Below are positions 36,776 to 62,808 of a DNA stretch of 64,000 nt, one piece after another. The translations under genes and the position numbers were made by a program. The notes beneath the pieces are model-generated. The model did not search any database. It was not told the origin of the DNA and saw only the letters and a list, made by a program, of their open reading frames with translations. Each line of letters begins with the position of its first letter. The stretch's first letter is position 1. Origin of the DNA: Chitinophaga sp. MM2321. GTDB taxonomy: Bacteria > Bacteroidota > Bacteroidia > Chitinophagales > Chitinophagaceae. Location of the stretch: NCBI RefSeq assembly GCF_964033635.1, contig NZ_OZ035533.1, positions 5,613,001-5,677,000 of the forward strand, written 5' to 3'.

Positions 36776-36813
36776 TCCTATTATCTTTCGCAACTCCTAT
36801 ACTATTTTTCAGA
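36776..36813. promoter_or_regulatory. AraC-regulon motif, copy at the regulator gene
   Basis: TCCTATTATC... runs to TATACTATTTTTCAGA and resembles the motif found at 50212, 55952, 56267 and 62771; its tail TACTATTTTTCAGA is the best-conserved part. It lies 75 nt before the AraC start codon, where an autoregulatory site would be expected. Confidence 0.5.
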
Positions 36814-36888
36814 AAAATTGAAGCATCCGTTATAATTCAATATATTTAGATATGGCATTTCATTTCTCAACTTTAAACTGAATGACTG

Positions 36889-37755
36889 ATGAAATCTATT
36901 GAATTACGGTTACCGAAAGATTTTGACAAATCATTTACTGTATTTAAAGAAGTGGGAAAATCTTTCCCCTGTCCCTGGCATTATCACCCGGAATATGAAT
37001 TAGTACTGGTTTTAAAAAGTAACGGCCGCCGGATGGTGGGAGACAATATCGGGAATTTCGATGAAGGAGACCTTGTATGCATGGGGCCTTCCTTACCTCA
37101 CGTATGGGTAAACGATCCAAAATTTATTAACGGACAGGTTGATTACATGGCTGAAGCTATTGTCATTCATTTTAAAGACAATTTCCTGGGAGAGAATTTC
37201 CTTCAAATTCCTGAAATGGATGCCTTTAAAAATTTTCTGCAATTATCTAACCGGGGCATGGTCATTAATGGGGAGGCTAGGGCAGAAATTACTGCATTAA
37301 TGGAAAAAATGCCGGGTATGAACGGACTTCAGCGTCTGTCATCACTTTTATTAATCTTCGATATTTTATCCCGCACTACTGAGTATGAATTACTGGCGAG
37401 TCCCGGCTTTGTTAAAACCATCAATGTAAAAAGTTCGGACCGGTTAAATAAGATAACAGAATATCTTATACAGAATTTTGATCAGGAGATTTCTTTGTCA
37501 AAAGTAGCCTCCCTAGCCAATATGGCGGTTACTACCTTTAGTAACTTTTTTAAAGAGAACTACAGGGTAACCTTTGTGGAATATCTGAATACCCTGCGGA
37601 TCGGATACGCCTGTAGAAAACTTTCAGAAAAGGATCAAAATATTGTGGATGTCGCTTATGAATGCGGATTCAATAGCCTGGCAAATTTTAACAGACAGTT
37701 TAAAAAATATAAAAACATGACGCCTACCGAATACAGAAGAATAATATGCGCCTGA
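36889..37755 (+). CDS. AraC-family regulator, probable controller of the catabolic locus
   Basis: A 288-residue regulator. The N-terminal cupin sensor has FPCPWHYHPEYELVLVLKSN and DNIGNFDEGDLVCMGPSLPH. The C-terminal AraC DNA-binding domain has EISLSKVASLANMAVTTFS for the first helix-turn-helix and VDVAYECGFNSLANFNRQFK, MTPTEYRR for the second. It sits at the regulator position next to a ~20-gene minus-strand locus with SusC/SusD. The same long motif occurs before itself and in front of the locus's transcription units, so it most likely senses an imported sugar-type inducer. Confidence 0.9.
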   Translation: MKSIELRLPKDFDKSFTVFKEVGKSFPCPWHYHPEYELVLVLKSNGRRMVGDNIGNFDEGDLVCMGPSLPHVWVNDPKFINGQVDYMAEAIVIHFKDNFLGENFLQIPEMDAFKNFLQLSNRGMVINGEARAEITALMEKMPGMNGLQRLSSLLLIFDILSRTTEYELLASPGFVKTINVKSSDRLNKITEYLIQNFDQEISLSKVASLANMAVTTFSNFFKENYRVTFVEYLNTLRIGYACRKLSEKDQNIVDVAYECGFNSLANFNRQFKKYKNMTPTEYRRIICA

Positions 37756-37785
37756 GAAAAAGCGGGACCTGTAAACCTGGCGTCT

Positions 37786-38568
37786 TTATGCATTTAAGCC
37801 ACCATCCATTAGTATATTCTCGCCGTTAATATAAGCACCGGCATCAGAGGATAATAGCACCATCAACCCCTTAATATCATCTTTGTTTGCCATTCTTCCC
37901 AGCGGTACTTTCTTACAATAATTATCTAAAAAACGTGGTGATTGATTATTAAATAATCCACCGGGACTGATACAATTAAACCTTACATTTTTGCCTGTCA
38001 ACATTTTAGTCATGTAACGGTTTAGATTGATCAACCCTCCATTATGGAAGAAATAATCCGGTGGAAGATCTCCCATAGTTGTTCCTTCGTAATTGGATAG
38101 ATCAGGACCAAACATGCCCATCATAGAACTGATATTAATAACGCTCCCGCCGCCACTCTGCACAATCAGGTCCGTCATTTCACGTAAAATAAACATCATA
38201 CCTGTGGCATTCACCTCCATAGATGCTGCAAACTGCTCTATTGCTGCATTGTAGCCTTTCATAGGCCGGGATACTGCGTTATTTACAAATACATCCAACC
38301 GGCCAAACCTATCCATGATCTGGTCTTTCAGCCTCATCACCGAATCACTATCAGCTTGATCAACGTCCATTGCGTGAACATCCAATCCTTCCTTGTTGAA
38401 GTCTTCCGCCACTTTTTGCAATGCTTCCAGGTTACGCGAAGCAATGATCACTGTTCCCCCTGCTTCAGATAACCCTTCTGTAATAGATTTTCCATAATTT
38501 CCGGCGCCACCTGTTACCAGTATAATTTTTCCTTTCAGGCTTAATAGGTCCAATACGTGCATCGTCAA
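37786..38568 (-). CDS. SDR-family oxidoreductase with altered catalytic lysine
   Basis: A 260-residue short-chain dehydrogenase. The Rossmann motif TGGAGNYGKSI and the NNAVSRP block are present. The active-site Ser is in INISSMMG and Tyr in PPDYFFHNGG. The usual YxxxK appears here as YFFHN, so the catalytic Lys position is Asn (codon at 38041-38043). The rest (GGLINLNRYM, CISPGGLFNNQ, ILMDGG) fits a subgroup acting on sugar-acid or polyol substrates. It overlaps the Gfo/Idh/MocA gene by 4 nt and ends the minus-strand array. Confidence 0.88.
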   Translation of the reverse strand: MTMHVLDLLSLKGKIILVTGGAGNYGKSITEGLSEAGGTVIIASRNLEALQKVAEDFNKEGLDVHAMDVDQADSDSVMRLKDQIMDRFGRLDVFVNNAVSRPMKGYNAAIEQFAASMEVNATGMMFILREMTDLIVQSGGGSVINISSMMGMFGPDLSNYEGTTMGDLPPDYFFHNGGLINLNRYMTKMLTGKNVRFNCISPGGLFNNQSPRFLDNYCKKVPLGRMANKDDIKGLMVLLSSDAGAYINGENILMDGGLNA

Positions 38569-39488
38569 CTTTTTAATTGAATAATTGCTCCACCATTTTC
38601 AAAACTTTCACGGGCACCTATCAACGTGTTGATGATAGATTCCGTTTTAGAAAAAGGCAGACGGGATTGTCCTTCTTCCACAGATCGTACAAATTCTATG
38701 ATGTTATCCCTGAACATGGAATAAGAATTCCGGATGTCTATCAACCGCCACCCCAGCTCTCCGAATACGGATAATTGAAAAGTAGACGATATATTCATGA
38801 ATAGATGAAACGTAACCTGCACACCGTTTTCAAATTTCACATGAACAATGTCCTTATCCTTTTCACCAATATGCTGCACAGTAATGGGCTGCGGATCATC
38901 GAGTAATGTAAACACTGCTTCCAGCAGATGAACACCATATTTCAGCCAGTCCTTTTTTCCAACGGCTGTCACTAATTCCAGCTTCCCCAAAGAAGCCAGT
39001 TCCTGCTTCACTATTCTGCACTCATTTGAATAGCGCATGGATGAACAGGACATGAAAACTTTTTCTTTTTCATGTTGATCACTGAACCAGGCAAGATCTT
39101 CCCTGGTAACGGCTATGGGCTTATCAATAAAAACAGGAATCCCTGCCTCAAAGAAGGGTTTGCTCATGGTAACATGCTGCTGTGCATCATCTCTGGATAA
39201 TATTACAGCATCCACCACACCCACCATATCTTCCAGATTATCTACTATATTTTCAATGTGCGTAGTCGCTGCAATACTCTGAGAAATAGTCTTGTCCTGC
39301 GTCCAGATATGCGTCACTTTTGCACCGCTAATCCCTATCGTATCCTTGTTTGCTTCCAGGTAATGCGCTACAGCAGGGTAACCCACACGGATAATTTCAT
39401 CTCCCTTAAAACAACCATTGATAATAGCTGACCAGGAATAAGGGTGTGCATTTCCCGGACTCATTCCTATCATTCCGATTTTGATCAT
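38565..39488 (-). CDS. Gfo/Idh/MocA-family oxidoreductase
   Basis: A 307-residue NAD(P)-dependent sugar oxidoreductase of the family. It has an N-terminal Rossmann fold (KIGMIGMSPGNAH, then VVDAVILSRDDAQQH). The motif FIDKPIA stands where EKP is common, and the C-terminal domain has DWLKYGVHLLEAV carrying the usual His. Likely oxidises or reduces a hydroxyl of a sugar or sugar-acid intermediate. It is translationally coupled to the SDR gene. Confidence 0.87.
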   Translation of the reverse strand: MIKIGMIGMSPGNAHPYSWSAIINGCFKGDEIIRVGYPAVAHYLEANKDTIGISGAKVTHIWTQDKTISQSIAATTHIENIVDNLEDMVGVVDAVILSRDDAQQHVTMSKPFFEAGIPVFIDKPIAVTREDLAWFSDQHEKEKVFMSCSSMRYSNECRIVKQELASLGKLELVTAVGKKDWLKYGVHLLEAVFTLLDDPQPITVQHIGEKDKDIVHVKFENGVQVTFHLFMNISSTFQLSVFGELGWRLIDIRNSYSMFRDNIIEFVRSVEEGQSRLPFSKTESIINTLIGARESFENGGAIIQLKS

Positions 39489-39503
39489 AATCAGTTGCGG
39501 TTT

Positions 39504-40460
39504 TTATTTTAGCCATCCCATTTTATCCCAATGAGGTAGATTCAGAAACGCAGGATCAGGATATGCAAGCCCCTGCGCCCTTTTAAGACCGTCCGGATGC
39601 ATGTATAATCCATCTGCAATGATAAGCGCCTGGCGAAGATATTCCATGCGGTCCATGCCAATCAGTACAGCAGCCACCTGTTCAGATGATAATGCAAATT
39701 TTATAGCCAGGGTCGGCAAATCAGCAAAATCGGCGCCCAGGAGATCGTCATAACGTTGTATATGCTGCTGCACATCCTGTAAAGCCGGATGCAGCTCTTT
39801 TCCACGATCACTTAGAAGCCCTTTTAGTAACACTGACCTGATCACAATTCCGATTCCCCGCTGCTTTGCTTCATCAAATAGTTCAGATTGCCTTTGATCC
39901 ATCAGGTTGTAAGGTACCTGCAGCACATCCCATAACCCGGAACTAATCGCTTTCTCCGTTTCATTGGTCGTGTATGTGGAAGCGCCGATGGCTCTTGTAA
40001 TACCTCTTTTCTCCAGGTCTGTAAATGCTTTTGCAATGGCCTGGTTTTCCAGGATTTCTTCATCAGCCTGATGTAACATGAACACATCTACATAATCTGT
40101 TTGAAGTGCAAGCAGACTTTCACTGACAGAAATTTCTATTATTTTTTTGATTTCGTTATCGGGTGGTAAATTTCCCTGCTTATCGCGAAATCCGCGGCAT
40201 TTAGTTGATATCACCACATCTTTTCTTCTACCGGCAAATGCTTTGCCCATAATGGTTTCGCTATTACCATATAAGCGTGCTGTATCAAAGAAATTAATGC
40301 CTGCATCGGTGGAAGCATGTAACAGCCGGATTGCTTCGTTCTCCGACACCATATCAGCAGCACTGTTCACCCCTATTCCATAAGGCATTCCAATTTCTAC
40401 GCCACCAAAAGCAACTTCGGATACCTGTATAGCAGTTCTTCCTAAAATCCTTTTTTTCAT
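39504..40460 (-). CDS. aldo/keto reductase
   Basis: A 318-residue AKR with the catalytic set DTARLYGNS (Asp, Tyr), VVISTKCRG (Lys) and DVFMLHQAD (His). It opens with the NAD(P)H oxidoreductase pattern LGRTAIQVSEVAFGGVEIG. It is related to L-fucose/D-threo-aldose dehydrogenase-type AKRs, so a role in sugar oxidation is plausible. Its start codon overlaps the end of the aldolase gene by 4 nt. Confidence 0.88.
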   Translation of the reverse strand: MKKRILGRTAIQVSEVAFGGVEIGMPYGIGVNSAADMVSENEAIRLLHASTDAGINFFDTARLYGNSETIMGKAFAGRRKDVVISTKCRGFRDKQGNLPPDNEIKKIIEISVSESLLALQTDYVDVFMLHQADEEILENQAIAKAFTDLEKRGITRAIGASTYTTNETEKAISSGLWDVLQVPYNLMDQRQSELFDEAKQRGIGIVIRSVLLKGLLSDRGKELHPALQDVQQHIQRYDDLLGADFADLPTLAIKFALSSEQVAAVLIGMDRMEYLRQALIIADGLYMHPDGLKRAQGLAYPDPAFLNLPHWDKMGWLK

Positions 40461-41278
40461 TTGTTTGATGTCTGATTTTCCAAATAAGAATTTTGATTTG
40501 CATCCTTATCGGTTTTATTAAACGCATGCACAATACCCGCGCAATAGTTCTTTAAGCCCACTACATCTGCCCCTATACTTACAAAATGATACCCCATAGC
40601 AGTCAACTCATCAAGATTATCGGTACTTCCTACCGTACCGGCAAACTTGCCATGTTTATTGGCTACTTCAGCCACTCTTTTCCTGGTTTCAATGATCTTA
40701 GGGTTTTGCCAGTCTCCCGGAGCGCCGATACTCTGACTAAAATCGCCGGGGCCAAAGAAGAGCATATCAAAACCTTCCAGTGCGGCAATAGCTTCCAGCT
40801 CATCGAGTGGTTCAACATCTTCAATCTGTAATACTATAAATCTTTCTTCATTAGCCTGTTTCAGGTAATCATTAAAATCCAGGGAGGTATATGCACCATC
40901 TGTGTTACCACCATCTATGGGCCTGCGGCCAATTGGATGAAAGCGTGTCATTTGTATTACTTTCCTGGCATCTTCCAGTCCCATTATATGCGGCACCATA
41001 ATACCGGTAGCGTCCAGTTCCAGCGGTTTAATATAATCGCTGTATCCACCGCGCGATACCCTTACCATTATATCGGTATTATGCGCTTTTGTTGCCCAGA
41101 TATTTGCAGCAACAATTGACCAGTCCTGGCCGATATGTTCCTGGTCTATCCAGATACAATCGAACCCGGAAATAGCCGCCACCTCAGACACTCTTGCATC
41201 CGATAAATTTATTTTAAAGCAACTGGTCGTTTTGCCGGCCCTCAGCTGCCGGAGTACCCGGCTTTTTCTCATTTGCAT
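40457..41278 (-). CDS. HpcH/HpaI-type class II aldolase
   Basis: A 273-residue metal-dependent aldolase of the HpaI/GarL family, which cleaves 2-keto-3-deoxy acids to pyruvate and an aldehyde. Motifs include the WIDQEHIGQDW block (DxEH), VRVSRG (Arg), ATGIMVPHIM, VLQIEDVEPL (metal Glu) and FFGPGDFSQSIG (metal Asp). A ~20-residue polar tail is extra. A second ATG 6 nt inside is also possible. As a keto-deoxy-sugar-acid aldolase it fits downstream of the enolase-superfamily dehydratase in the same locus. Confidence 0.88.
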   Translation of the reverse strand: MQMRKSRVLRQLRAGKTTSCFKINLSDARVSEVAAISGFDCIWIDQEHIGQDWSIVAANIWATKAHNTDIMVRVSRGGYSDYIKPLELDATGIMVPHIMGLEDARKVIQMTRFHPIGRRPIDGGNTDGAYTSLDFNDYLKQANEERFIVLQIEDVEPLDELEAIAALEGFDMLFFGPGDFSQSIGAPGDWQNPKIIETRKRVAEVANKHGKFAGTVGSTDNLDELTAMGYHFVSIGADVVGLKNYCAGIVHAFNKTDKDANQNSYLENQTSNK

Positions 41279-41301
41279 GGAAAGTATTTTAAGATTTATT
41301 A

Positions 41302-42567
41302 TTACTGTTCCGCCTTCTCAGCAGTTCCAGGTTTCACCAGATACAACAGGAAAGCACAGATAATCAAAATAAAAGCAGCAGACCGGTATATCATTCCCAG
41401 GTTTATATCTGCATCACGCAGCAAGCCACCTGCATACAATCCGGCTCCGCCAATAATTGTAGCGAACATATTCAGCACCCCATACCCCGTAGCACGATAA
41501 CGGGGGTCTGCCACCAGGCAAAGGATAGGCATCATATTCGCATCTGTAAATGTACGTGTGACACCATAAATCATAAAAAAAACAATGGCAACCGGAAGGA
41601 TGGCCGTATTGCCCGCTATAAATACACAGGGCGCTGCTATGCAAAGTCCGATTACAGGCACCATTACCCGCGCCCTGGGATTGTTTTTACTCCAGCGGTC
41701 AGCTAAAAATCCTCCTAACAGTAATCCAACAATGGAGGCCGGATAAAAATAGCCTGTAGCATACAAACCAGCCATTCCCTGTGAAAGATTAAACTGTTCT
41801 TTATAATACGTGGGCAACCATCCCATAATCATCCAGCCTACTATGCCCATCAATCCCCAGAAGAAAAGCATGTAGATAAAAGCTCTCCGGCTAAACAAGT
41901 CCTTAATAGCCTCTAAAAACCTGACCTTAGTCGCCTCTTCCCCGGCAGGTATATCCGCCTTTTCCACGGGAGCATCCTTCAGCGTGAATGCCAGGATAAT
42001 TGAATAAGCTATGCCGATAATGCCAAAAATATAGAACGCAAAAGTCCATTCATGTTTTTCCGCAATCCACCCACCAACAAAGCCCAGGCTTTGCCCGATC
42101 ATAATACCGGCAATATGAATACCGGAAGCCAGTGAACGCGTAGACCCGCGGTGATAATCTACGATCAGTGCCAGCGCCGCCGGAATATAACAGGCTTCAC
42201 TGATCCCCATCAATGCCCGCGTAGCTAACAAGCCTTCAAAAGTTGTTACGTATGAAGTTAACCAGGTTACCGCCGACCATACAAACAAACTCACGATAAT
42301 AACCCGGCTACGCTTAAATCTGTCCGCAAGAAATCCGGCAAATGGACTTAGCAAACCATACACCCATAGAAAAACAGAAGTCAGCAGTCCGAATTGTCCA
42401 TCGGTCATTGGCATATCTTCTACAATAGAACTCCTCATCGTGGTGATCATGGAGCGATCTATATAGTTTAATGCGCCTACAACAGAAAGTAATGCAACAA
42501 CAAGCCATGCTCCTTTAGCCAATTTTTTAATCGCAGGTTTATCGATAACTGATGAATTTCCAAGCAT
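41302..42567 (-). CDS. MFS transporter, anion:cation symporter-like
   Basis: Inner-membrane importer of 421 residues with 12 predicted helices. Features are ALNYIDRSMITT at TM1, FAGFLADRFKRSRVI (MFS loop 2-3 motif) and GFLADRWSKNNPRARV in the second half. The pattern is close to hexuronate/galactarate-type ACS transporters. It probably carries the sugar acid released in the periplasm into the cytoplasm, where the aldolase and oxidoreductases encoded next to it act. Confidence 0.88.
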   Translation of the reverse strand: MLGNSSVIDKPAIKKLAKGAWLVVALLSVVGALNYIDRSMITTMRSSIVEDMPMTDGQFGLLTSVFLWVYGLLSPFAGFLADRFKRSRVIIVSLFVWSAVTWLTSYVTTFEGLLATRALMGISEACYIPAALALIVDYHRGSTRSLASGIHIAGIMIGQSLGFVGGWIAEKHEWTFAFYIFGIIGIAYSIILAFTLKDAPVEKADIPAGEEATKVRFLEAIKDLFSRRAFIYMLFFWGLMGIVGWMIMGWLPTYYKEQFNLSQGMAGLYATGYFYPASIVGLLLGGFLADRWSKNNPRARVMVPVIGLCIAAPCVFIAGNTAILPVAIVFFMIYGVTRTFTDANMMPILCLVADPRYRATGYGVLNMFATIIGGAGLYAGGLLRDADINLGMIYRSAAFILIICAFLLYLVKPGTAEKAEQ

Positions 42568-42655
42568 ACTCGTTTTAAATTAAACAAATGAAATGAATGC
42601 ACTACGATAATGGTTTCAAACAACGGGAGGAACAAAGCCCTGTCAGATAAATAAG

Positions 42656-44107
42656 CTAATTAAACTTTATAGAATATAAATCTGCATCTTTCATATAAAT
42701 ACGCAGTCTGACAGGCTTTCCAGCGATTTTACTTACACTTTCATTCCCATTCCATGACACTATTCTCTTTATTTCATTTCCAATGATTATTTGCGCATCT
42801 TTTAAGGTATATCCGGGAATAGCCTTCCCTTTTTCATCCTGAATTTCAATGCGGATTTCACCCGCAGCAGAAGTGGAGTAGTTAATTTCAAGTTCCTTAC
42901 CTGAAAATACAAATGGTTTTGTGAGCATCTCTCCCCCATTATAGGGGGCGGACAACGACGAAAATCCATCTATTCTTAAAGAAAACCTTTTCAGATGGGC
43001 GGAGTGTTGTGCATAGTTCTCGTTGACATATACAGACATCTCTACCGGGCTGGTTTGTACAACATTTAATGCCGGATAATTAGAGCGAGATACCCAGTTC
43101 TCCAAACCAATTCCCGGCCTGATAAACGATTCCATGAAGGTTCTGCTATACTCATTGCCCCCACGGGTAGACAACAGAACGGCATCAGAACAATCTTTAT
43201 AATAAGAGGGATTTACATTCAATTTAATAGCCTCCTTATCAGCAACAACCTGGCGATCAGGCATAAAACGAGCGCCAATAGCCACGTAAATGTGTGGTGC
43301 TCTGTAGTAAGGGCTTGTTTGGTGCGTATAGAGGTGCTCCGGCGGTGTATCACCAAATTCCATCGGAACAGGCGTTGTCCAGTTTATAAAGTCCTGGGAC
43401 GTAGACCTACTAACAGATCTGAATTTATCTTTTGTCCATGTACGAAAATAACATACATACTTTTGCTCACTTTCAGACCAGAATGGCACATTCTGAGAAT
43501 CAAAGGCAAAAGACTTCGCTTTTAATACGGCACTATCCTGAAGTTTCTTCCAGTGAATACCATCTGCCGAAACATAAGGGAGCAAGCCACCAGGATGGTA
43601 TCCACCCAAAGCTTTATATCGCTGATCTTTAGGAGCAGCCGGATTTGCATCCAGGAACGGGCAAAAATTATGTGTTACCGGAGCAGCATCGGCCAAAATA
43701 ACATTGTTTTTAAGAGACCCCCGAACGTTATAAATTCCCAGATCAGGTTTAATCCAATGCACCCCATCCTTAGACTCCGCATAACAGGTTACTTCCATTG
43801 GGCTACCGTCTCCCGGCACTGGTAATCCCCGGTAATATGCTCTTAAAATATCTCCATCTTTAATAATGGTCGTATAACCGCTAAACGGACCCTCCCAAGG
43901 GCTGTCAAATTTCAATACAGCTCCTTCATTACGCGGTGTGTGCATCACCATCTTTACATCTGTAAGTTTATCGATCAGGTAATGATCTACAAAAATCTCA
44001 CGCTTATCGCCGAGACGCACAATCTGATGTTGCTGCCCAAAACCTACGATGGGATTATATACTATACTTATAAGGAAGACGGCCCAAATTATACACCTAA
44101 AATTCAT
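42656..44107 (-). CDS. exported beta-propeller glycosidase-like protein
   Basis: About 483 residues from ATG 44107, which gives a signal peptide (MNFRCIIWAVFLISIVYNPI ...). An earlier in-frame start at 44134 is less likely. Repeated blade-like motifs (YYRGLPVPG, CYAESKDGVHWIKPDLGIY, PYVSADGIHWKKL, CYFRTWTKD) suggest a five-bladed GH43/GH32-like propeller, followed by a C-terminal beta-sandwich (~residues 360-480) with KPVRLRIYMKDADLYSIKF. No family can be named. It shares architecture with the protein encoded at 53202-54836. Confidence 0.7.
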   Translation of the reverse strand: MNFRCIIWAVFLISIVYNPIVGFGQQHQIVRLGDKREIFVDHYLIDKLTDVKMVMHTPRNEGAVLKFDSPWEGPFSGYTTIIKDGDILRAYYRGLPVPGDGSPMEVTCYAESKDGVHWIKPDLGIYNVRGSLKNNVILADAAPVTHNFCPFLDANPAAPKDQRYKALGGYHPGGLLPYVSADGIHWKKLQDSAVLKAKSFAFDSQNVPFWSESEQKYVCYFRTWTKDKFRSVSRSTSQDFINWTTPVPMEFGDTPPEHLYTHQTSPYYRAPHIYVAIGARFMPDRQVVADKEAIKLNVNPSYYKDCSDAVLLSTRGGNEYSRTFMESFIRPGIGLENWVSRSNYPALNVVQTSPVEMSVYVNENYAQHSAHLKRFSLRIDGFSSLSAPYNGGEMLTKPFVFSGKELEINYSTSAAGEIRIEIQDEKGKAIPGYTLKDAQIIIGNEIKRIVSWNGNESVSKIAGKPVRLRIYMKDADLYSIKFN

Positions 44108-44169
44108 TCTCCAATAGCGTTTAGTTATTATCAAATTAATGTGTCAGAAGGCAATTCCGCCTGTTAAAA

Positions 44170-44234
44170 GAAAAATATTTAAAGGCTGTAAAAATTAATC
44201 TCCCTTTCACCAGAGAAACATTTACAGCCTTTAA
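44170..44234 (-). terminator. terminator after the SGNH hydrolase gene
   Basis: TTAAAGGCTGTAAA (44179-44192) pairs perfectly over 14 bp with 44221-44234. On the minus strand the stem is followed by ATATTTTTCTTTTAA. It separates the susC-susD-hydrolase unit from the genes below. Confidence 0.78.
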
Positions 44235-44265
44235 TTCAGCTATTCAACGATAGTAATTGCTGCGC

Positions 44266-44946
44266 TTAATTAATATACTTTTTCAAAATATCCGCCCATA
44301 TATAATATCCTTTCTTTGTTAAATGCACGCCATCCCAGGTACAATCTTTAAAGAGATGACCACTGGCATCTGAAAATGGCGTGTGAATATCTATCAACGT
44401 TATTCTTTCCTCCGCTGCAATTTCTATAAGGGCGGCATTTATCTTTAGGATGTGTGCTTCTTTATTGAAATGGTTCATCTGTCTTGTAAAGGAGCTATTG
44501 GTAGGAAGTAAGGTCTGAAAATAAATCCTTGTCCTGGGCGAGCCCTCTTTGATCCGTGTAATCATCCTTTTATAATTTCTGATGATAATACTGTCGGGAA
44601 TGCCGGCAGACACGTCATTGATTCCAATCAATATAAAAACCTTTCGCGGTTTCCCATCAATTACTTCATCCAGCCGTTCAAGTACCCCAAAAGTATTGTC
44701 GCCTGGAATACCCCTGTTTTTAATATGGGATGAGCGTAATAGCTCACCCCATTCTCCCCAGAAAGTAATACTGTTTCCCAACAATACAATGTCCTTTTTT
44801 GAATGGCGAAAGGACTTAAACAGCTCCAACCTCGGGACGTATACGTTAGGACGGGATATGCTGTCCAATTTAATTTCCTGCGCAACGCCCCTTAGAGGAT
44901 TCAGCAAGACAGATAAAATAATGACTACTGATAAATGAAACTTCAT
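44266..44946 (-). CDS. exported SGNH/GDSL hydrolase
   Basis: A 226-residue esterase-type protein with a signal peptide (VVIILSVLLNPLRGVAQ). Block I is DIVLLGNSITFWGEW (nucleophile Ser in GNSIT), block II has KNRGIPGD, block III FILIGINDVS and block V CTWDGVHLTKKGY with the catalytic Asp and His. It probably removes acyl groups from the imported carbohydrate. It lies 51 nt after susD. Confidence 0.88.
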   Translation of the reverse strand: MKFHLSVVIILSVLLNPLRGVAQEIKLDSISRPNVYVPRLELFKSFRHSKKDIVLLGNSITFWGEWGELLRSSHIKNRGIPGDNTFGVLERLDEVIDGKPRKVFILIGINDVSAGIPDSIIIRNYKRMITRIKEGSPRTRIYFQTLLPTNSSFTRQMNHFNKEAHILKINAALIEIAAEERITLIDIHTPFSDASGHLFKDCTWDGVHLTKKGYYIWADILKKYIN

Positions 44947-44997
44947 TTCACACAGAATTTATAAACCCGGTATATTTCTTCTCTTTAATCAAAGAAC

Positions 44998-46770: not shown

Positions 46771-46794
46771 CTAATAAAAATTAATATTGAATGA

Positions 46795-53157: not shown

Positions 53158-53201
53158 CGCCGATTTTTCATTTTTTCTTTATCCTAATTTAATCACCTTC
53201 C

Positions 53202-54836: not shown

Positions 54837-54910
54837 TTTAATTCATTTTATTATTGATAATAATGTTTGTCCGATTTTGTTATTGAGATGAGCATGTTCA
54901 CCCTAATTGT

Positions 54911-54918
54911 CAAATATA
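54911..54918 (-). promoter_or_regulatory. -7 box TATATTTG upstream of the 53202-54836 gene
   Basis: The minus strand reads TATATTTG, an exact consensus match 75 nt before the start codon. A partial copy of the AraC-regulon motif (AGCTACTATCTT) begins at 54946, 28 nt away, inside the 3' end of the neighbouring gene. Confidence 0.45.
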
Positions 54919-54950
54919 TTTCCACCTTTCACAAGTCCGGATGATAGCTA

Positions 54951-55829
54951 CTATCTTGTCATGCCATATCTATCTGTTATCCATTTAACCGCCCGGTCTA
55001 CCGATCCCTTGGGAGTGCTATGACCTTTTGGCTCTGTCATTACATTTAATTCTACATCACTTTTTGATGAGGCCTTACTTATCTTTCTTGCCAATTCAAT
55101 CGCTTTATCTGTATCTACCCGTTCATCCCTGTCGCCAATTACAATCCATACTCCTTTTTGTGACAGCGAATTAATTTTGTTATCAAGATTAAGTGACGCA
55201 GGGATATCTGTAGCAGAAAAGCCCGAAAATTCCTTTAATGCCAGCAAGTCGGTCACCGGAGCAAAAGCAGCAACGGCTTTCACACCAGGCTCGGATGCAG
55301 CGAATTGAAGTGCTAAATAACCACCCCTGGAAGTTCCACACACGGCAATCTTATCAGGATCAGCATAGCCCTTTTTTATGAGGAACTTCAGAATTTCGCT
55401 CACGCTACGATTATTATCTTTTACAAAATCTTCCCCCCGCTTTGCGGCAACCGCCCAGCCCGTCAATCCGCTTTCAGCTGCTTTCCGGATTCTTTTTCCA
55501 TGATAAGGTATATCCAACGATACACATAGCCAGCCATATTCTTTCGCCAGGCGGGTCCCGCATTGTCTAAAATATTCACTGTTCAGCGTCTCATCTATTG
55601 TATTAGATAAAATAACTAATATAGGTTGTGGTGATTTTCCTTCAACATAACCCCATATACCAAAGTCCACCCCATTATCAGTTCTCATATGACGCACGTC
55701 TGTTTTCAGAGATTGACTGCTACCTATTTGTGTAATACACAAAAGCGGGATCATGATAAAACAGATCTTTGTCCATAAAGACAAAATGCCCTGATAAGTA
55801 TATATACCTATCTGTTTCGATTCAGCCAT
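54951..55829 (-). CDS. exported alpha/beta hydrolase
   Basis: About 292 residues from ATG 55829; the frame extends to 55925 but without homology. An N-terminal hydrophobic segment (WTKICFIMIPLLCITQIGSS) acts as signal or anchor. The nucleophile elbow is AVCGTSRGGYLAL (Ser in GTSRGG). The acid fits WIVIGDRDERVDTDKA (Asp) and the His MTEPKGHSTPKGS. It is probably an esterase or peptidase-like hydrolase for an acyl or ester group on the substrate. Two motif-bearing promoters lie upstream. Confidence 0.85.
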   Translation of the reverse strand: MAESKQIGIYTYQGILSLWTKICFIMIPLLCITQIGSSQSLKTDVRHMRTDNGVDFGIWGYVEGKSPQPILVILSNTIDETLNSEYFRQCGTRLAKEYGWLCVSLDIPYHGKRIRKAAESGLTGWAVAAKRGEDFVKDNNRSVSEILKFLIKKGYADPDKIAVCGTSRGGYLALQFAASEPGVKAVAAFAPVTDLLALKEFSGFSATDIPASLNLDNKINSLSQKGVWIVIGDRDERVDTDKAIELARKISKASSKSDVELNVMTEPKGHSTPKGSVDRAVKWITDRYGMTR

Positions 55830-55922
55830 ATTGATTTTCTTATTATTTTCATATCGTTTATGCTCGTTATTCACCCCGATCATTTCAATTCCGTGGACAT
55901 CAGGAAAGTAACACCACACAAC

Positions 55923-55989
55923 CAAAAATAGCCATACCAGCTACCAATATTTGCTACTATTCTTTATATTCCTAATACTTGTTTTCAGA
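55923..55989 (-). promoter_or_regulatory. promoter with AraC-regulon motif (copy E) for the alpha/beta hydrolase
   Basis: CAAAAATA at 55923-55930 is the reverse complement of TATTTTTG, a perfect -7 box. TGCTACTATTCTTTATATTC starts at 55952, exactly 22 nt away, and continues to TTTTCAGAT at 55989. Transcription would start about 85 nt before the ATG at 55829. Confidence 0.65.
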
Positions 55990-56236: not shown

Positions 56237-56304
56237 CAAAGTTAATATGCAAACAACCTTGCACTATGCTACTTTTATTTCAAATTATAATACTATTCTC
56301 CAAA
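56237..56304 (-). promoter_or_regulatory. promoter with AraC-regulon motif (copy B)
   Basis: CAAAGTTA at 56237-56244 (minus strand TAACTTTG, perfect -7 box) lies 23 nt from TGCTACTTTTATTTCAAATT starting at 56267, which continues with TAATACTATTCTCCA. It points the same way as copy E, ~315 nt further upstream. The intervening sequence has no gene I can recognise. The whole gap 55830-56433 holds these two promoters and nothing else visible. Confidence 0.55.
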
Positions 56305-56433: not shown

Positions 56434-57813
56434 CTATTGCGGCCCATGCACATCTTTTACCCGATGTATTAATTGCAGCAATTGATTACGGATATCATCT
56501 TCCGCCTGCAATTCAAGATGACAGGTACGACAGCGCCAGGTTTCATATCCCCCTTTTTCAATTTCATGGGCAGGTGGCACATAACCGATATAACCATTAG
56601 CCATACATATTGTAAAATAAGGTGTCCCGGCAGTTTGTGCTTTCAGCCACAAACCCGTTTCCGAAAAAAATTCGCCTCCCAGCGCACCGATCACGCCACT
56701 GCCAATGCTTATAGCTTGTACCGGGAAAGCAACCCTGTCCGGGAACTCATTCAATAAAACCTGTTCCCTCGCATAGATCTTATCAATACCATCCTGATCA
56801 GTAACAAGACGCTCATATATTGTTTCCCCTACTATTTTTTTTGCAGACATTAATTCATTAGCGGATGGTTTACGAACCCCCATCTGCTCTTCTTTATATG
56901 CAACAGCTATTGCAGGATTCACTTCCCATTGAATGTCTTTGACAGCCTGAAAAACTTTCTCTGCCAGATCGGAGCCGATCAACTCACTCTTTTTAAAATT
57001 TTCTTTGGGATAGCGGTCCGGCTGCAGGAAATCCCAGATATTGGCTTCACCACTGGTTCCATTGCTCATCATGCCAATAAAATCAGTTCCGGCATTCAGT
57101 TTAGCCGCAATTTGTTTTGAGAACACCCCAAAATAATCAGGTGTAATGGTACCATCCTCACAATCGCCTACATAGTGCATGGAATAATTAGCCAATACAC
57201 TGATCCATTTTTCATCCATCCCTTTTACCGCCAGAAAAGACAAGCTGGTATCTATCCGGGAGGCCCGCTTTTCAATATCGCTTTCATACCCTAACGGGTT
57301 CGTTTTTATAGTATCATTTCCACCTGTTACCGGATTATGTGCCACAAATCCCGGTTTCATAAAATAGCGCCTGCATACTACGTGCTCAGGGGCATCTACC
57401 ACAGCAAATGCTATTTTCGCCGGCCGCAGATTTTGCTGAGCCTGCATTACGGATTGTACAATCAATGCCGGCAACTTCTTTCTATAGGCCATATCCACCG
57501 CACACCCCAACAGATCAGTCACAGATCCTGCGGAATGCGTATGCGTACTTGAAATAAGAATATTTGCTGTCGGGATGCCTGTCTGTCGGAATATTTCTGA
57601 TTTAACTTCATTCAGGAAATCTATCTGCATCGCACAAATGTCTACCACAACAAGCGCCACAGTGGTGTGGGCGTCCTTTACAACCAATGCTTTGGCGTGC
57701 AAATTATCATGTATCTTTTTTGCATAATAAGTGATAAGATTACCATTAACAAGTGTACCCAAAGGTGGCGTAATATCAACTTGTGAGGCTCCCGCAGAAA
57801 ACAGCTCTTTCAT
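56434..57813 (-). CDS. neutral/alkaline ceramidase-like protein
   Basis: A 459-residue protein with the N-terminal pattern SAGASQVDITPPLGTLVNG, then ALVVKDAHTTVALVVVDICA and LISSTHTHSAGS. This is the layout of the neutral/alkaline ceramidase family domain, with its zinc-binding His pair (THTH). The nucleophile region fits MMSNGTSGEANIWD. No signal peptide is visible, so it may be cytoplasmic. Shortened relatives of ~450 residues occur in sugar-degrading gene clusters and may act as amidases or sugar-acid hydrolases rather than on ceramide. Confidence 0.75.
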   Translation of the reverse strand: MKELFSAGASQVDITPPLGTLVNGNLITYYAKKIHDNLHAKALVVKDAHTTVALVVVDICAMQIDFLNEVKSEIFRQTGIPTANILISSTHTHSAGSVTDLLGCAVDMAYRKKLPALIVQSVMQAQQNLRPAKIAFAVVDAPEHVVCRRYFMKPGFVAHNPVTGGNDTIKTNPLGYESDIEKRASRIDTSLSFLAVKGMDEKWISVLANYSMHYVGDCEDGTITPDYFGVFSKQIAAKLNAGTDFIGMMSNGTSGEANIWDFLQPDRYPKENFKKSELIGSDLAEKVFQAVKDIQWEVNPAIAVAYKEEQMGVRKPSANELMSAKKIVGETIYERLVTDQDGIDKIYAREQVLLNEFPDRVAFPVQAISIGSGVIGALGGEFFSETGLWLKAQTAGTPYFTICMANGYIGYVPPAHEIEKGGYETWRCRTCHLELQAEDDIRNQLLQLIHRVKDVHGPQ

Positions 57814-57861
57814 TAAAAAAAATTATATAGCCAGGAAATTATCTTATTAAGATACTATCTC

Positions 57862-58944
57862 TTACGCCCATGCTTTACGCAAAAACCTGAGCCAGTTTTT
57901 ATGGAATAGATTATCAATATCTGCTGCTGTATATCCCCGACGCGAAAGAATACCTTCATACTTCTGAAGGTCCGCGATGGAGTTTAAATCCCAGGGAGAT
58001 TGTTCCCGGCCAAAAATTCCATCCAGGTCACTACCAATACCCACATGCAGACTGTTGCCTGCAATCTGGCAAATATGATCCCAATGATCTACCAGATTTT
58101 CCAGTTTTATATTGAGTTGCCAGGGATCTGAAACTGTATCTATAAAACGGATATCCATTGCCCAGCAATCCAGCATACCACCAATGACCGCACCTCTTTC
58201 GATTAACCGTTTTATCTGATCATCGGTCAGTTGCCGCTGTGTTGGTACTATCTTTCTTGTATTACAATGACTGGCCCAAACCGGACCACTGTAGTTATCC
58301 ATTGCCTGATAAAAACCTTCATCCGTCAAATGGGTTACATCCAGGATCAGGTTCAGTTTCTCCATTTCTTTCAGCAATGCTATGCCGGCTGAAGTCAAAG
58401 GCCCTTCCATCTTAGTGCCAGGCGCATATCTTCCGGGACCAAAATGCGATAGCCCTACTGCACGTAGTCCGTAATCGTAGGCTTTATGTAAATAAGAAAT
58501 ATCAACGAACGAATCTGCTCCTTCCAGGCTTAAAATATAACCAACAGGTTTGGTTTCATCAGGGATAGCAGCATCATTCCATAAGTCCAGGTGTGCTTCC
58601 AGTCCTTCGAGATCTTTTACCTGGGTCATTTCTCCCATGGCTTCCATTTCTTTATACCAGGCCAGTTGCCCCTGTGTCATAGCCCATGCCTGCTGGGGAG
58701 AATGCCAGCCGGGTAAAGAACTCCCCGGCGGTGTAAACCGGGAAAGCTGGGTAGCCACTACCAGTCCTATTCCACCTTTTCGTAACTCCGGTAAACAAAC
58801 CGTTCCTTTTCCCCTATCCGGCTTATCTTTTAAATGCATCTCTCTTTGCCGTATCTCATCCAACGGACGGGATAGATCCCTGTTCCATTCTATTGCATTC
58901 ATGGACAGGTCAAGATGTGCGTCAAAAATGAATGTCTTACTCAT
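57862..58944 (-). CDS. membrane dipeptidase (M19) family hydrolase
   Basis: A 360-residue metallohydrolase of the renal-dipeptidase family. The metal ligands fit FDAHLDLSMN (HxD), SLEGADSF (bridging Glu), LDVTHLTDEG and WASHCNTRKI (His residues), and IGSDLDGIFG (Asp). No signal peptide is seen, so it probably acts in the cytoplasm. Bacterial M19 members cleave dipeptides, some beta-lactams or N-acylated D-amino acids. Here an amide-linked intermediate is likely. It overlaps the upstream dehydrogenase-like gene by 8 nt. Confidence 0.87.
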   Translation of the reverse strand: MSKTFIFDAHLDLSMNAIEWNRDLSRPLDEIRQREMHLKDKPDRGKGTVCLPELRKGGIGLVVATQLSRFTPPGSSLPGWHSPQQAWAMTQGQLAWYKEMEAMGEMTQVKDLEGLEAHLDLWNDAAIPDETKPVGYILSLEGADSFVDISYLHKAYDYGLRAVGLSHFGPGRYAPGTKMEGPLTSAGIALLKEMEKLNLILDVTHLTDEGFYQAMDNYSGPVWASHCNTRKIVPTQRQLTDDQIKRLIERGAVIGGMLDCWAMDIRFIDTVSDPWQLNIKLENLVDHWDHICQIAGNSLHVGIGSDLDGIFGREQSPWDLNSIADLQKYEGILSRRGYTAADIDNLFHKNWLRFLRKAWA

Positions 58945-59932
58945 TAATGCTACGATTGATAGTGGTTGACGAAACAGCGTTTTCCCTTTTATAATTGAAG
59001 GGATACTTCTCCATGATGCGCTGTATCTGATAACTGAATCTCCGGAATGTTTCCGCTAATTTTTTCGAATCGCTTTCCTGGTATTGATAAAGACCCTTAT
59101 TTTTTTCAGCCGGTCGTTTTAGTTTTTCAATGCTCTCAATAAAAAATTCCGGAATAGTGCTATCCTTCGATAATTCAGGGTTCAGGTCCTTCATCACGCG
59201 GCCATAACTACAGGCGCCACCCATCAGATCTATGTACCTGAAATTCCCTGCAAATGGCAAATAATATCCGGGGTCATTTCTGCATGCCCGGTCGATATCC
59301 TCAATAGAAGCATATCCATTGGATACCAGGAAAAAAGCTTCCCTGGTCATGGCAGCGATCATTTTTGCCCGGATGCCAAGACCACCGGAAACAATATAAG
59401 GATCTTTTCCCCAACTTGTTTTTGCAGTATCGGCCAACTGATCAACCAAGGCCATCTTATTTTTACCGGTAGCAATAATTTCAAGAAAATAAGTAGTGTG
59501 CGCAGGTTCGGACCAATTAAGTCCTATGATACGCTCCGGATAATGGCAACCTTCCTGCAAAGTGCTTAACGGAATACTTTCTGTATTTATCGCTATCACT
59601 GCATGCGCCGGTAGCTTATTTTCTAACTGCTCAATCAGTAATTTCTTCTTCAATACAGCTTCTTCCGTTATCACAATGGCCATTTTGTACGGCAGCTCAC
59701 TATCCAGTACATCTGTAATGTCCAGTAGCTTCCGGTTGATCACCTGCGCCGTGTGTTGCGTTAAGTCTGCATAATGAATAGCAATATTTTCTGCTGCCTT
59801 ATGTTTATTTTCCGTACATAATACTACAGCATATCCTGACTGTAACAAACACACAACAACGCTATACACCAGTTTCCCCTCTCCTACAATCAATACAGGT
59901 TCCTTCTTAATTCCATTCAATTCCATGTACAT
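58937..59932 (-). CDS. 3-hydroxyacyl-CoA-dehydrogenase-like protein lacking the catalytic His
   Basis: A 331-residue protein with the two-domain 3HCDH layout. The NAD-binding N-domain ends at INTESIPLSTLQ, with the C-terminal helical domain beyond. The glycine loop is altered (IVGEGKLVYSV instead of GxGxxG). The catalytic His, normally in GxHWxEP, is Asn (IIGLNWSEPAHTTYFLEI), codon at 59516-59518. It lies between the aminotransferase and the M19 gene with the intact paralog (61324-62298) nearby. It may be a degenerate enzyme, a partner subunit or a different-reaction member. Confidence 0.8.
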   Translation of the reverse strand: MYMELNGIKKEPVLIVGEGKLVYSVVVCLLQSGYAVVLCTENKHKAAENIAIHYADLTQHTAQVINRKLLDITDVLDSELPYKMAIVITEEAVLKKKLLIEQLENKLPAHAVIAINTESIPLSTLQEGCHYPERIIGLNWSEPAHTTYFLEIIATGKNKMALVDQLADTAKTSWGKDPYIVSGGLGIRAKMIAAMTREAFFLVSNGYASIEDIDRACRNDPGYYLPFAGNFRYIDLMGGACSYGRVMKDLNPELSKDSTIPEFFIESIEKLKRPAEKNKGLYQYQESDSKKLAETFRRFSYQIQRIMEKYPFNYKRENAVSSTTINRSINE

Positions 59933-59968
59933 TATTTATTTGAACATAAGTAATGCCCCACTCCGGAG

Positions 59969-61273
59969 CTATATGCCACTTAACACTTCTGATGCAATTT
60001 TAATGGCGTGCTCTATCTCTTCTTCCGTATGTACAGCACTGATATACCACAAGCCTCTTCCAATGATTCTTATCTTCCTGTCATGCATTCCTGCTATAAA
60101 CTTGCCTAGTTTAACGCGGTCCAGCGCCAGCGTATCCCTGTAATCATGCATTTCACCGCCGTCTGTAAAGCCCATGTGAAACATAGGACCAGGGCCCTGA
60201 ACAACCAAATGCTGGCCGTGTTTCGCCGCCGCTTCGCGCAATCCTTCCATCAGTCTTTTGCCATATTGAAACATGCGGTCGTAAGGAGCCTCTTTTTCCA
60301 ACACCTCAATAGTAGCAAGGGCCGCAGCAATGGTTGGATTACTTGCATTCATGGTACCTGCATGTATCACCTTCGCCTCTTCTATTAAGTTCATCCACTC
60401 CCTTTTACCCGCCACTACACTTATCGGGTAACCGCTTCCGAGAGCTTTCGCAAAAATGGAAAGATCCGGTGTAACGTTGAAGTATTGCTGCGCACCGCCA
60501 AGTCCCAGTCTGAAGCCAGTGATCACCTCATCAAAGATCAATGCCATTCCATGCTCATCACATAGCTCGCGGAGTCCGGACAGGAACCCTTCTACAGGCT
60601 GGATACAACCATTATTACACATCACGGGTTCTGTAATAATGGCTGCTATTTCGTTTTTATGTGCGGCTACAATCTTTTTAAGTATCGTAATATCATTCCA
60701 TGGCGCGATGATAAATTCATCTCTGGATTGTGCCGGCAAACCTGCCGTCCATGGGTGTACTTCCGGTGCTTCTTTACTGCCCAAAGCAGCTACGGAAGGA
60801 GCGGAAATTCCCCAGCACATATTGTCCAACCAACCATGATAATGGCCTTCAAAACGAAGGAATTTTTTGCGGCCTGTTTTAGCTCTCGCTACCCTTAAAG
60901 CTGTTTGCACTGCTTCCGATCCATCCAGGCAAAAGCGCATCAGTTCAGCAGATGGGATTAAGCGGTGGATGGTTTCTGCCAGCTCTATTTCTTTTATATG
61001 TTGCCCGGCAAACAATTGTCCCTGCTCTGTATATTCATGTATTGATTTCAATACATGTGGATGTGAGTGCCCCAATATCAATGGTCCCTGGCTCAGGGTG
61101 AAGTCCAGATATTCATTATCATCCACATCATAAATCCGGCTTCCTTTTCCATGTGTATAAAAGATAGCATGCGGATGATTATATTTCCTGAACTCTGAAG
61201 AAACACCGCCAGCCATTACCTTCTTTGCCCTTTCAAGCAAGTCGGCAGACCGGGTATATTTTATCTTTTCCAT
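59969..61273 (-). CDS. class III aminotransferase, GSA-aminomutase-like
   Basis: A 434-residue PLP enzyme. The N-terminal block GGVSSEFRKYNHPHAIF and YLDFTLSQGPLILGHSHP resemble glutamate-1-semialdehyde 2,1-aminomutase. The PLP-binding Asp is in LIFDEVITGFRLGLGG and the Schiff-base Lys in SIFAKALGSGYPIS. This position, beside dehydrogenases in a catabolic locus rather than heme genes, points to transamination of an amino-sugar-acid or amino-acid-type intermediate. Not a hemL. Confidence 0.87.
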   Translation of the reverse strand: MEKIKYTRSADLLERAKKVMAGGVSSEFRKYNHPHAIFYTHGKGSRIYDVDDNEYLDFTLSQGPLILGHSHPHVLKSIHEYTEQGQLFAGQHIKEIELAETIHRLIPSAELMRFCLDGSEAVQTALRVARAKTGRKKFLRFEGHYHGWLDNMCWGISAPSVAALGSKEAPEVHPWTAGLPAQSRDEFIIAPWNDITILKKIVAAHKNEIAAIITEPVMCNNGCIQPVEGFLSGLRELCDEHGMALIFDEVITGFRLGLGGAQQYFNVTPDLSIFAKALGSGYPISVVAGKREWMNLIEEAKVIHAGTMNASNPTIAAALATIEVLEKEAPYDRMFQYGKRLMEGLREAAAKHGQHLVVQGPGPMFHMGFTDGGEMHDYRDTLALDRVKLGKFIAGMHDRKIRIIGRGLWYISAVHTEEEIEHAIKIASEVLSGI

Positions 61274-61323
61274 TACAATTGAAATGGGGTTATATGAATA
61301 ATAAAATGCGCGAAAAACGATGG

Positions 61324-62298
61324 CTATTTTTTTAATGCAGGGGTAATCGTTTCCGATGGGAACATAGCTGCCAAGCGGTAAATGTCCTGATTAAAAGAAG
61401 CAAAAGCTTTATCCCATTTTACGGAATCCTCTTCTGTATAACTATAAAACCCTTTGGAATTCTGGGTCCCCCTGGCATCTTCATTCATCAATCGTTGAAT
61501 GATGACAGGTACCTCATCAGAATTGCTCAAAGCAGGGAACAAGGTGTTGAAGATGACAAGATAATCTTCCAGTCCCATGAAGTCCATCCGTTTGAAGATC
61601 CCCATCAGGGTTATCCACGAGCCGGCATCATATCTGAAAGCCTTATCGGCATCTTCAATGGAGGTGTGGCCATTTCCTACCAGCGACAACGCTTCCCTGT
61701 ATACTGAATACATCAGGCGGTTGGTAATAAAGCCCCGGATATCCTTTCTTAGCAAGGTTGGTTCTTTTCCCCATGCATGCGCCAGTTCAAACACCCAATC
61801 AGCTGTCCGGGTAGCTGTTTTTTCACCGCAAATGATTTCCAGGAACCGGGTCGCAAACGCAGGTTCGGCCCAATGAATGCCAATGAACCGTTCAGGAACC
61901 GGGATAAATCCCTGTAGCATACTAATTGGTATGGCCGAGGTATTACTCGCTAAAATGGTGTCTTGTCCTACTGCTGCTGCAATCTTTTTGAAAACCTTTT
62001 CTTTAATCTGCACATCCTCTATGATGCATTCCACTACCAGGCTGCAATCATGCAATTCTTCATAATTATTAGAGATGGTCAGGGAAGATAGATAAGCTTC
62101 TACAGGCTTTATTAAAAGTCCTCCCTGCTCGCAAACAAGAAGCTGATCCCTGATCCGGCCAGCAGCAATGGCCTCTTCACCCATCAGTGGAGCAATCGCT
62201 TTTACGGTATGACCAGCTATTAAAAGTGAAGCCACAATGCTGCTTCCCATCAAACCCAATCCGACAATACCGATATGGATATTTTTAATATCTGTCAT
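61324..62298 (-). CDS. 3-hydroxyacyl-CoA-dehydrogenase-family protein (L-gulonate/carnitine dehydrogenase-like)
   Basis: About 324 residues from ATG 62298 (an in-frame start at 62343 would overlap the RidA gene). The Rossmann motif is HIGIVGLGLMGSSIVASLLI, followed by ASNTSAIPISMLQGFIPVPE. The catalytic His is present in FIGIHWAEPAFATRFLEI. The short single-dehydrogenase form is that of L-gulonate 3-dehydrogenase and carnitine dehydrogenase. In this locus it likely oxidises a 3-hydroxy acid. Confidence 0.87.
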   Translation of the reverse strand: MTDIKNIHIGIVGLGLMGSSIVASLLIAGHTVKAIAPLMGEEAIAAGRIRDQLLVCEQGGLLIKPVEAYLSSLTISNNYEELHDCSLVVECIIEDVQIKEKVFKKIAAAVGQDTILASNTSAIPISMLQGFIPVPERFIGIHWAEPAFATRFLEIICGEKTATRTADWVFELAHAWGKEPTLLRKDIRGFITNRLMYSVYREALSLVGNGHTSIEDADKAFRYDAGSWITLMGIFKRMDFMGLEDYLVIFNTLFPALSNSDEVPVIIQRLMNEDARGTQNSKGFYSYTEEDSVKWDKAFASFNQDIYRLAAMFPSETITPALKK

Positions 62299-62302
62299 TA
62301 TT

Positions 62303-62698
62303 TTAAGGCTTAGTGGGTAATTTGACAATGCAATCAATCTCAACTTTTATACTTTCGGCCAAGACAGATTGTACGGTGGTTCTGGCTGGTCTTATTCCCG
62401 GAAAAAAAGTGGCGTATACTTTATTGAACCTATCGAAATCACCAATGTCAGTTAAATGCACGGTACACTTTACTACATCTTCCATAGCAGCTCCTCCAGC
62501 CGTTACAATGGCTTTAATATTCTCCAGCGTACGTTTTGTTTCTTCTTCAATGGTTCCTAAAACAAACTTCGAGGTTTTGAAGTCAACAGCGGCTTGTCCA
62601 CTAACGAATAAAAAGCCATCTACCAAAACAGCATCCGAATAAGCTCCTGTAATAAATGAAGGATCCCTGTCTGGATGATTAACACCTACTTTGCCCAT
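62303..62698 (-). CDS. RidA/YjgF-family enamine/imine deaminase
   Basis: A 131-residue protein of the RidA superfamily, which hydrolyses reactive enamines or imines released by PLP enzymes. Features are AYSDAVLVDGFLFVSGQA, the ligand Arg in PGIRPARTTVQSV and the late Glu in KVEIDCIVKL. It fits as a helper to the class III aminotransferase encoded two genes later. It is the first gene of the longest transcription unit of the locus, 4 nt from the dehydrogenase gene and behind a motif-bearing promoter. Confidence 0.88.
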   Translation of the reverse strand: MGKVGVNHPDRDPSFITGAYSDAVLVDGFLFVSGQAAVDFKTSKFVLGTIEEETKRTLENIKAIVTAGGAAMEDVVKCTVHLTDIGDFDRFNKVYATFFPGIRPARTTVQSVLAESIKVEIDCIVKLPTKP

Positions 62699-62741
62699 AA
62701 ATCAATTATTAAGAATTTCGCATTTCTATCTCCTGCGAGTC

Positions 62742-62808
62742 CAAAATTAGCTTACCGCAATTCCCGATTATGTCACTTTTGTTCAGATTTGTAGTATTAT
62801 TTTTCAGA
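62742..62808 (-). promoter_or_regulatory. promoter with AraC-regulon motif (copy C) for ridA unit
   Basis: CAAAATTA at 62742-62749 is the reverse complement of TAATTTTG, a perfect -7 box 44 nt before the RidA start. TGTCACTTTTGTTCAGATTT begins at 62771, exactly 22 nt away, and continues with GTAGTATTATTTTTCAGA. Confidence 0.68.

Follow-up and report, generated by a model that had tools for sequence, protein, structure and literature searches.

A 38-bp direct repeat accompanies an AraC-family regulator and outlines its probable catabolic regulon in Chitinophaga and related Bacteroidota

What ties a large catabolic gene array to the single AraC-family gene that stands beside it in Chitinophaga sp. 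MM2321? The locus lies in a 64,000-nucleotide (nt) stretch of contig NZ_OZ035533.1 (positions 5,613,001 to 5,677,000), hereafter the window, in whose numbering the coordinates of the locus are given. The regulator gene, araC (36889..37755, plus strand), encodes a protein of 288 amino acids (aa). An earlier note on this DNA had proposed that a shared motif of about 38 nt joins this gene and the neighboring operons into one regulon. Our analysis upholds that proposal: the AraC protein very probably binds the 38-base pair (bp) sites and activates the operons at promoters devoid of a -33 box, judging from the comparative evidence set out below.

All five sites of the earlier note are present, four with the full pattern and a related one before araC; it had read them on the plus strand, but the functional strand is the minus strand. 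Site 1 (50212..50249; 48.5 bits) lies upstream of the SusC/SusD operon, site 2 (55952..55989; 40.4 bits) upstream of an operon running from a hydrolase gene to YhcH, with site 3 (56267..56304; 36.8 bits) as a second, tandem copy, and site 4 (62771..62808; 39.5 bits) upstream of the RidA operon. Site 5 (36776..36813) is proximal to araC and, with a refined score of 29.1 bits, is the weakest of the five. On the minus strand the five line up gaplessly along all 38 bp. Each forms a direct repeat whose half-sites (letters 5-17 and 26-38 of the 38-mer; consensus roughly GAAAAATAGTATCA and AAATAATAGTAACA, with varying A/T-rich letters) are 21 bp, or two helical turns, apart, as in the AraC-type direct-repeat regulons of Bacteroidota. 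Over the window sites, identity averages 0.61 at lag 21; lag 24 comes second with 0.50. The first 19 nt of the motif, with up to three mismatches, match the window four times against a shuffle mean of 0.05, one match (41362, minus strand) falling outside the named sites and the sites at 36776 and 62771 missing the threshold; its second half matches seven times against 0.99, five of the seven being named sites. When each site is held out in turn, two or five window positions score at least as high; this number includes the site itself and the sites used for training, so that no non-site can be among them.

The earlier note had expected matches in the genome at this locus only, and the consensus pattern bears this out. 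Allowing three mismatches, it occurs three times in the 6.78-Mb genome, always at this locus (50212, 55952 and 62771; reversed control, none), the sites at 56267 and 36776 having diverged too far to be caught. With a shorter and looser pattern there are likewise three exact matches, all here, and at one mismatch a single match elsewhere (416532) with no TAnnTTTG box downstream. As a control on spacing, a pattern with a spacer one base longer than in the sites misses all window sites and yields 44 matches in the genome versus 42 for its reversed version.

Among relatives, the motif goes with the AraC gene. Scanning genomes with the AraC protein, we retained the top 80 of at least 561 loci, 44 of which form an ortholog group (AraC at least 56% identical; loci L045-L087 and L089) and 36 a distant group (at most 47% identical). 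At 20 bits, a matrix of the five window sites scores a match in 36 of the 44 ortholog loci versus 1 of the 36 distant ones (Fisher p = 9e-14), a conservation at orthologous loci that the earlier note had anticipated; the contrast is 26 versus 1 at 25 bits and 23 versus 0 at 30 bits. One hundred column-permuted matrices reach 20 bits in a mean of 0.21 of the 44 ortholog loci, and in one at most. The repeat recurs as well, with lag-21 identity of 0.585 at the ortholog-locus sites (next best 0.453). According to record titles, the loci come from Chitinophagaceae, Cyclobacteriaceae, Spirosomataceae and Sphingobacteriaceae (checked for the families of Niabella, Lunatimonas, Larkinella and Parapedobacter); the other genera we presume to fall in the same families. 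The motif is thus conserved, together with the regulator, upstream of operons that appear co-functional in that they recur together.

Whole genomes give a similar picture. Among 21 AraC-bearing genomes, the consensus pattern occurs 29 times in 16, and never in the reversed control. By contig numbers and coordinates, 27 of the 29 matches share a contig with AraC and are no more than about 37 kb away from it; the remaining two (L196, L197), each with its box at 21 nt, precede RidA-like and SusC-like genes. The five genomes lacking a match belong to L065, L070, L071, L083 and L085, loci with weaker matrix sites. In a separate set of 244 family genomes, 12 carry an AraC ortholog (called at an E-value of at most 1e-100) and 11 the pattern, which is present in 6 of the 12 AraC-positive versus 5 of the 232 AraC-negative genomes (Fisher p = 1.4e-6). 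All five genomes with two or more matches are AraC-positive.

How would a protein at these sites act? At the four structural-gene sites, the -7 boxes TAnnTTTG lie on the minus strand at 50183..50190 (TAGATTTG), 55923..55930 (TATTTTTG), 56237..56244 (TAACTTTG) and 62742..62749 (TAATTTTG), for sites 1 to 4 respectively. The distances of 22, 22, 23 and 22 nt given for sites 1, 2, 3 and 4 in the earlier note are exact, and equal 21, 21, 22 and 21 nt when counted, as here, from site end to box start. This spacing is strikingly uniform. We collected 83 unique sites of at least 22 bits from the window, the 44 ortholog loci and 20 further stretches: the box, which was not used in building the matrix, starts exactly 21 nt from the site end in 46 and 22 nt in 2, and every other offset up to about 70 nt occurs at most once. 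Another 19 unique sites, from loci found in scans of 29 AraC-bearing genomes (21 plus 8), show the box at 21 nt in 17 cases. In none of the 46 boxed sites is a -33 TTTG found at spacings 16-24; the proximal half-site occupies the place where it would be. The arrangement, a site at fixed distance over the -33/-35 region with no consensus -33, is that of a class II activator-dependent promoter. Thus, of the activator bound just upstream of the -33 region that the earlier note had pictured, the activator-like fixed spacing stands but the position does not, since the proximal half-site covers that region. TTTG is described as the -33 element of the phylum in PMC7366714, which also relates that no -33 motif could be found in Flavobacterium johnsoniae, so absence of the element alone is no proof of activator dependence.

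A site overlapping the place of the -33 could also belong to a repressor that keeps RNA polymerase away and comes off on meeting a ligand, and the reversed site near araC could be repressive. Yet a promoter under repression should keep its -33, which is missing from all 46 boxed sites, and a rigid 21-nt spacing is what contact between an activator and polymerase would need; we rate repression as very improbable. Another alternative dispenses with a dedicated regulator: the shared sequence, which is AT-rich and keeps a constant distance to the -7 box, would then extend these AT-rich promoters or serve them as an UP-like element. This is scarcely credible, given that in the own genome the consensus is confined to this locus, that the motif also stands before araC without a box, and that 209 intergenic boxes in 40 own-genome stretches of 20 kb have no special 21-bp repeat signal upstream. 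We also considered whether a 21-bp repeat placed 21 nt before the -7 box might be a general rule of promoters. No lag was stronger than 21 at AraC-paralogue loci (589 boxes), at ortholog loci (645 boxes) and in a small own-genome set (129 boxes); the same 40 stretches, an independent systematic sample, show nothing special at lag 21, and the idea was therefore rejected genome-wide, although it may hold for AraC-linked loci.

Several observations weigh against activation by this particular AraC, and they must be set beside the evidence above. In a control with five permutations per locus, L046 had a permuted score as high as 27 bits and L120 one of 23 bits, so single permuted matches above 20 bits do occur. 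A refined matrix built on the ortholog sites finds a site of at least 22 bits in 39 of the 44 ortholog loci, an in-sample figure in that the matrix was trained on those same 44 loci. Of the five it leaves without a site (L064, L068, L069, L081 and L084), four have one in a whole-genome pattern scan, which covered eight AraC-bearing genomes and matched in five; L064 has neither a matrix site in its 9-kb contig nor a whole-genome pattern match. There is no match to the consensus pattern in 5 of the 21 and 3 of the 8 AraC-bearing genomes, most of which have matrix sites near AraC. Conversely, each of five AraC-negative family genomes carries one match, two of these before SusC-like genes, in a survey where AraC calls were scored on the 10 best candidates per genome. 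Over all own-genome matches with up to three mismatches, the shorter pattern stays at background (44 versus 55 in the reversed control), and 8 of 42 sites not near AraC have no box at 21 or 22 nt. The refined matrix also gives at least 20 bits at 3 of the 36 distant loci (L101, L102 and L103). Two of them, the Alistipes loci L101 and L103, combine an AraC of 41% identity with a related site whose box stands at 21 nt and which the first matrix scores at 27.4 and 19.3 bits; on these sequences the motif is not strictly private to the ortholog group, and related AraC proteins may share it. In these two uncultured Alistipes the site, at 9802 (minus strand), lies upstream of a SusC-like gene. Finally, 61 other places in the Chitinophaga genome match this AraC protein at an E-value of 1e-3, so a paralogue could bind too.

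The last point, the AraC-negative genomes with a match, and the 21-bp direct repeats also used by hybrid two-component regulators with AraC-type domains (described in PMC3878776) could all be accommodated if the sites belonged to another regulator, either an AraC paralogue or one of the hybrid two-component systems, with the local AraC a mere passenger. The motif nevertheless tracks the ortholog group, both across loci and across genomes, and within 350 bp upstream of an ortholog we count 41 unique sites, all 41 reversed relative to AraC. We thus consider ownership by another regulator quite improbable and favor the product of 36889..37755. That product has the C-terminal double helix-turn-helix of the AraC/XylS family (Pfam HTH_18, 1.2e-21; HTH_AraC, 6e-15), and its sequence relatives in PDB are AraC-type DNA-binding domains such as MarA, SoxS and AraC. 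As to a separate ligand-sensing domain, its N-terminal cupin match is weak (Cupin_2, 8.3e-4; 19.5 bits, below the 27.2 cut-off), and a WHYHPEYE stretch is invariant in 25 aligned sequences.

Does the regulator control its own gene? The earlier note had reported a site before araC; the site is there, but it is reversed relative to the gene and has no TAnnTTTG downstream. Among the 41 AraC-upstream sites, 29 lie 38-76 bp from the AraC start, and only 7 of these 29 have a box. Larkinella loci are among the seven, with RidA divergent on that side. In Cyclobacterium and Lunatimonas two sites adjoin, the distal one with and the AraC-proximal one without a box. For the -7 box of araC itself, none of the 29 sequences has an exact TAnnTTTG. 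The window has a candidate -7 box at 36841..36848 (plus strand; TATATTTA, five of six specified letters), 27 nt past the site edge, and a possible -33 TTG at 36818-36820 (plus strand); near-matches at an offset of 38 recur in 10 of 29 sequences, an alignment that is lineage-specific only. These reversed, mostly boxless sites suggest autoregulation. Alternatively, the araC-proximal site of the window might be a relic of an ancestral divergent araC-RidA arrangement. RidA stands divergent beside AraC, served by the site, in Larkinella and some other loci; in the window the gene upstream of araC runs in the direction of araC, the RidA operon, with a site of its own, is 25 kb distant, and site 5 is the weakest. 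On the other hand, Cyclobacterium and Lunatimonas keep a boxless AraC-proximal site beside a distal one whose box serves the divergent operon. On this single point a relic is unlikely, albeit a serious contender.

Autoregulation of some kind thus remains the preferred reading of site 5, and the whole can be drawn together in a model. We infer that the AraC protein binds each 38-bp site as two protomers on the tandem half-sites, whose 21-bp separation would bring both onto one face of the DNA. At the structural-gene promoters, the downstream half-site would stand in for the missing -33, with the TAnnTTTG box 21 nt further on; the fixed spacing between half-site and box, in place of a -33, argues for an activator touching RNA polymerase in a class-II-like manner. 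In this way AraC would switch on SusC/SusD outer-membrane uptake, hydrolases and two enzyme modules (A and B, below), while the reversed site, mostly without its own -7 box, would control araC itself, up or down. The inducer would be an intermediate of the pathway.

The genes concerned, assigned by Pfam, form three minus-strand blocks. Module A (56434..62698), a presumed operon, comprises RidA, two 3HCDH-type dehydrogenases (1 and 2) separated by a class III, GSA-aminomutase-like aminotransferase, an M19 dipeptidase-like and a ceramidase-like protein. A second presumed operon (50385..55925) encodes an alpha/beta hydrolase, an unknown 544-aa protein, an MR/MLE dehydratase-like protein, a 2-hydroxyacid dehydrogenase and YhcH. 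The third stretch (37786..50043), which a single promoter would serve throughout, holds SusC, SusD, a GDSL hydrolase and an unknown 492-aa protein, followed by the five genes of module B: an MFS transporter, an HpcH aldolase, an aldo/keto reductase, a GFO/IDH-like protein and an SDR. Modules A and B recur, whole or in part, beside AraC in relatives. By BLASTP against the window proteins, the nearest downstream open reading frame (ORF) at the 48 boxed sites is RidA or SusC-like (13 each), dehydrogenase 1 (8), the hydrolase or HpcH (2 each), the aminotransferase, MFS or MR/MLE (1 each), or none of these (7). Five of the seven unmatched ORFs have Pfam matches (PhyH, glucosamine isomerase-like, GH3, sodium symporter and 3-keto-disaccharide hydrolase); the other two lack any. 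The equivalent site of the closest relative (L045; site at locus L173) lies between SusC and the ceramidase-like gene, the latter within 1.3 kb. The hydrolase-to-YhcH block is therefore missing from that position and may be a gain of the window, acquired along with its own sites. In another genome (L171) a site precedes MR/MLE and 2-hydroxyacid dehydrogenase genes. The mechanical TTG start of the gene at 54951-55925 (minus strand), at 55925, overlaps the -7 box 55923-55930, and the real start codon is therefore likely further in.

The enzyme families suggest catabolism of an acidic sugar (dehydratase, pyruvate-type aldolase, transporter) with an amino branch (aminotransferase, RidA). Names from NCBIfam and PDB sequence searches are at superfamily level only: none of the 18 regulon proteins (those other than SusC and SusD) reaches an equivalog cut-off among its best 25 NCBIfam matches, while YhcH and RidA reach subfamily cut-offs. 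The transporter is nearest a galactonate family, below its cut-off. The 492-aa and 544-aa proteins lack Pfam and NCBIfam matches, as well as PDB matches at an E-value of 1e-3, and glycosyl hydrolase family 32 appears in the names of some homologues of the former. For the 544-aa protein (53202-54836, minus strand), several named relatives come from Planctomycetes (e.g., Rhodopirellula) and Verrucomicrobia, which suggests gene exchange.

Further observations concern the surroundings of araC and its paralogues. Upstream of araC are two tandem paralogues, 33762-35174 and 35227-36627 (plus strand), 79% identical and with no Pfam or NCBIfam match; the first begins with a signal-peptide-like stretch. 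At a second locus of the same genome (L202 15184-19114 and the L203 junction, about 4.953-4.958 Mb), two AraC paralogues (46% and 51%) flank M19-like (62%), dehydrogenase-1-like (50%) and SDR-like (20%) genes. The dehydrogenase copy has a different 38-mer upstream, with a partial 21-bp repeat (9/17) and TAnnTTTG exactly 21 nt downstream. A near-identical 21-bp repeat, ATAGTGTCG ... CTATAGTGGCT, precedes a TAnnTTTG box in Chitinophaga alhagiae (L120, about 6777, minus strand), about 3 kb from a 37% identical AraC, and at one intergenic place of the own genome (among L205-L244); it looks like another AraC-type regulon.

What might the regulon be for? Our search of the accessible literature found no paper on this regulon or gene combination, and no description of the aminotransferase/RidA/dehydrogenase module. 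Tentatively, we put forward that this AraC defines, over several Bacteroidota families, a regulon for an undescribed pathway of an acidic, N-acylated or aminated sugar, with two portable modules, in which the -33 box has been given up for the rigid 21-nt spacing and gene blocks join by acquiring one 38-bp site and a box. The comparative definition is unusually clean for environmental Bacteroidota, extending from the regulator and its half-site letters to the 21-bp repeat and the exact -7 distance. Through it, a SusC/SusD uptake system is connected with an aminotransferase/RidA/dehydrogenase module, the pathway becomes testable by deleting a single gene, and Bacteroidota gain a defined layout for inducible promoters.

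How does this system compare with those already known? The class II AraC-type activators RhaS, MarA and SoxS of E. coli bind tandem half-sites that overlap the -35 region, a layout that the present sites would resemble; here the promoter is of the Bacteroidota -7/-33 type and the half-site letters are different. Closer parallels exist in Bacteroides. The hybrid two-component systems of Bacteroides thetaiotaomicron combine, according to PMC3878776, an AraC-type domain, tandem sites averaging 21 bp and SusC/SusD targets, as here. Those hybrids are sensor kinase fusions, whereas the 288-aa protein has no sensor kinase or receiver match in Pfam, and so resembles RhaR more. RhaR, which governs the L-rhamnose regulon of Bacteroides, is likewise a one-component AraC-family regulator of a Bacteroidota catabolic regulon with a 21-bp direct repeat, as described in PMC3870299. 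Motif letters are described there as unique to each group and the target set differs, being here a RidA-aminotransferase-dehydrogenase module. The architecture of the Chitinophaga sites thus matches published Bacteroides AraC-type motifs, and the kind of control is one already known.

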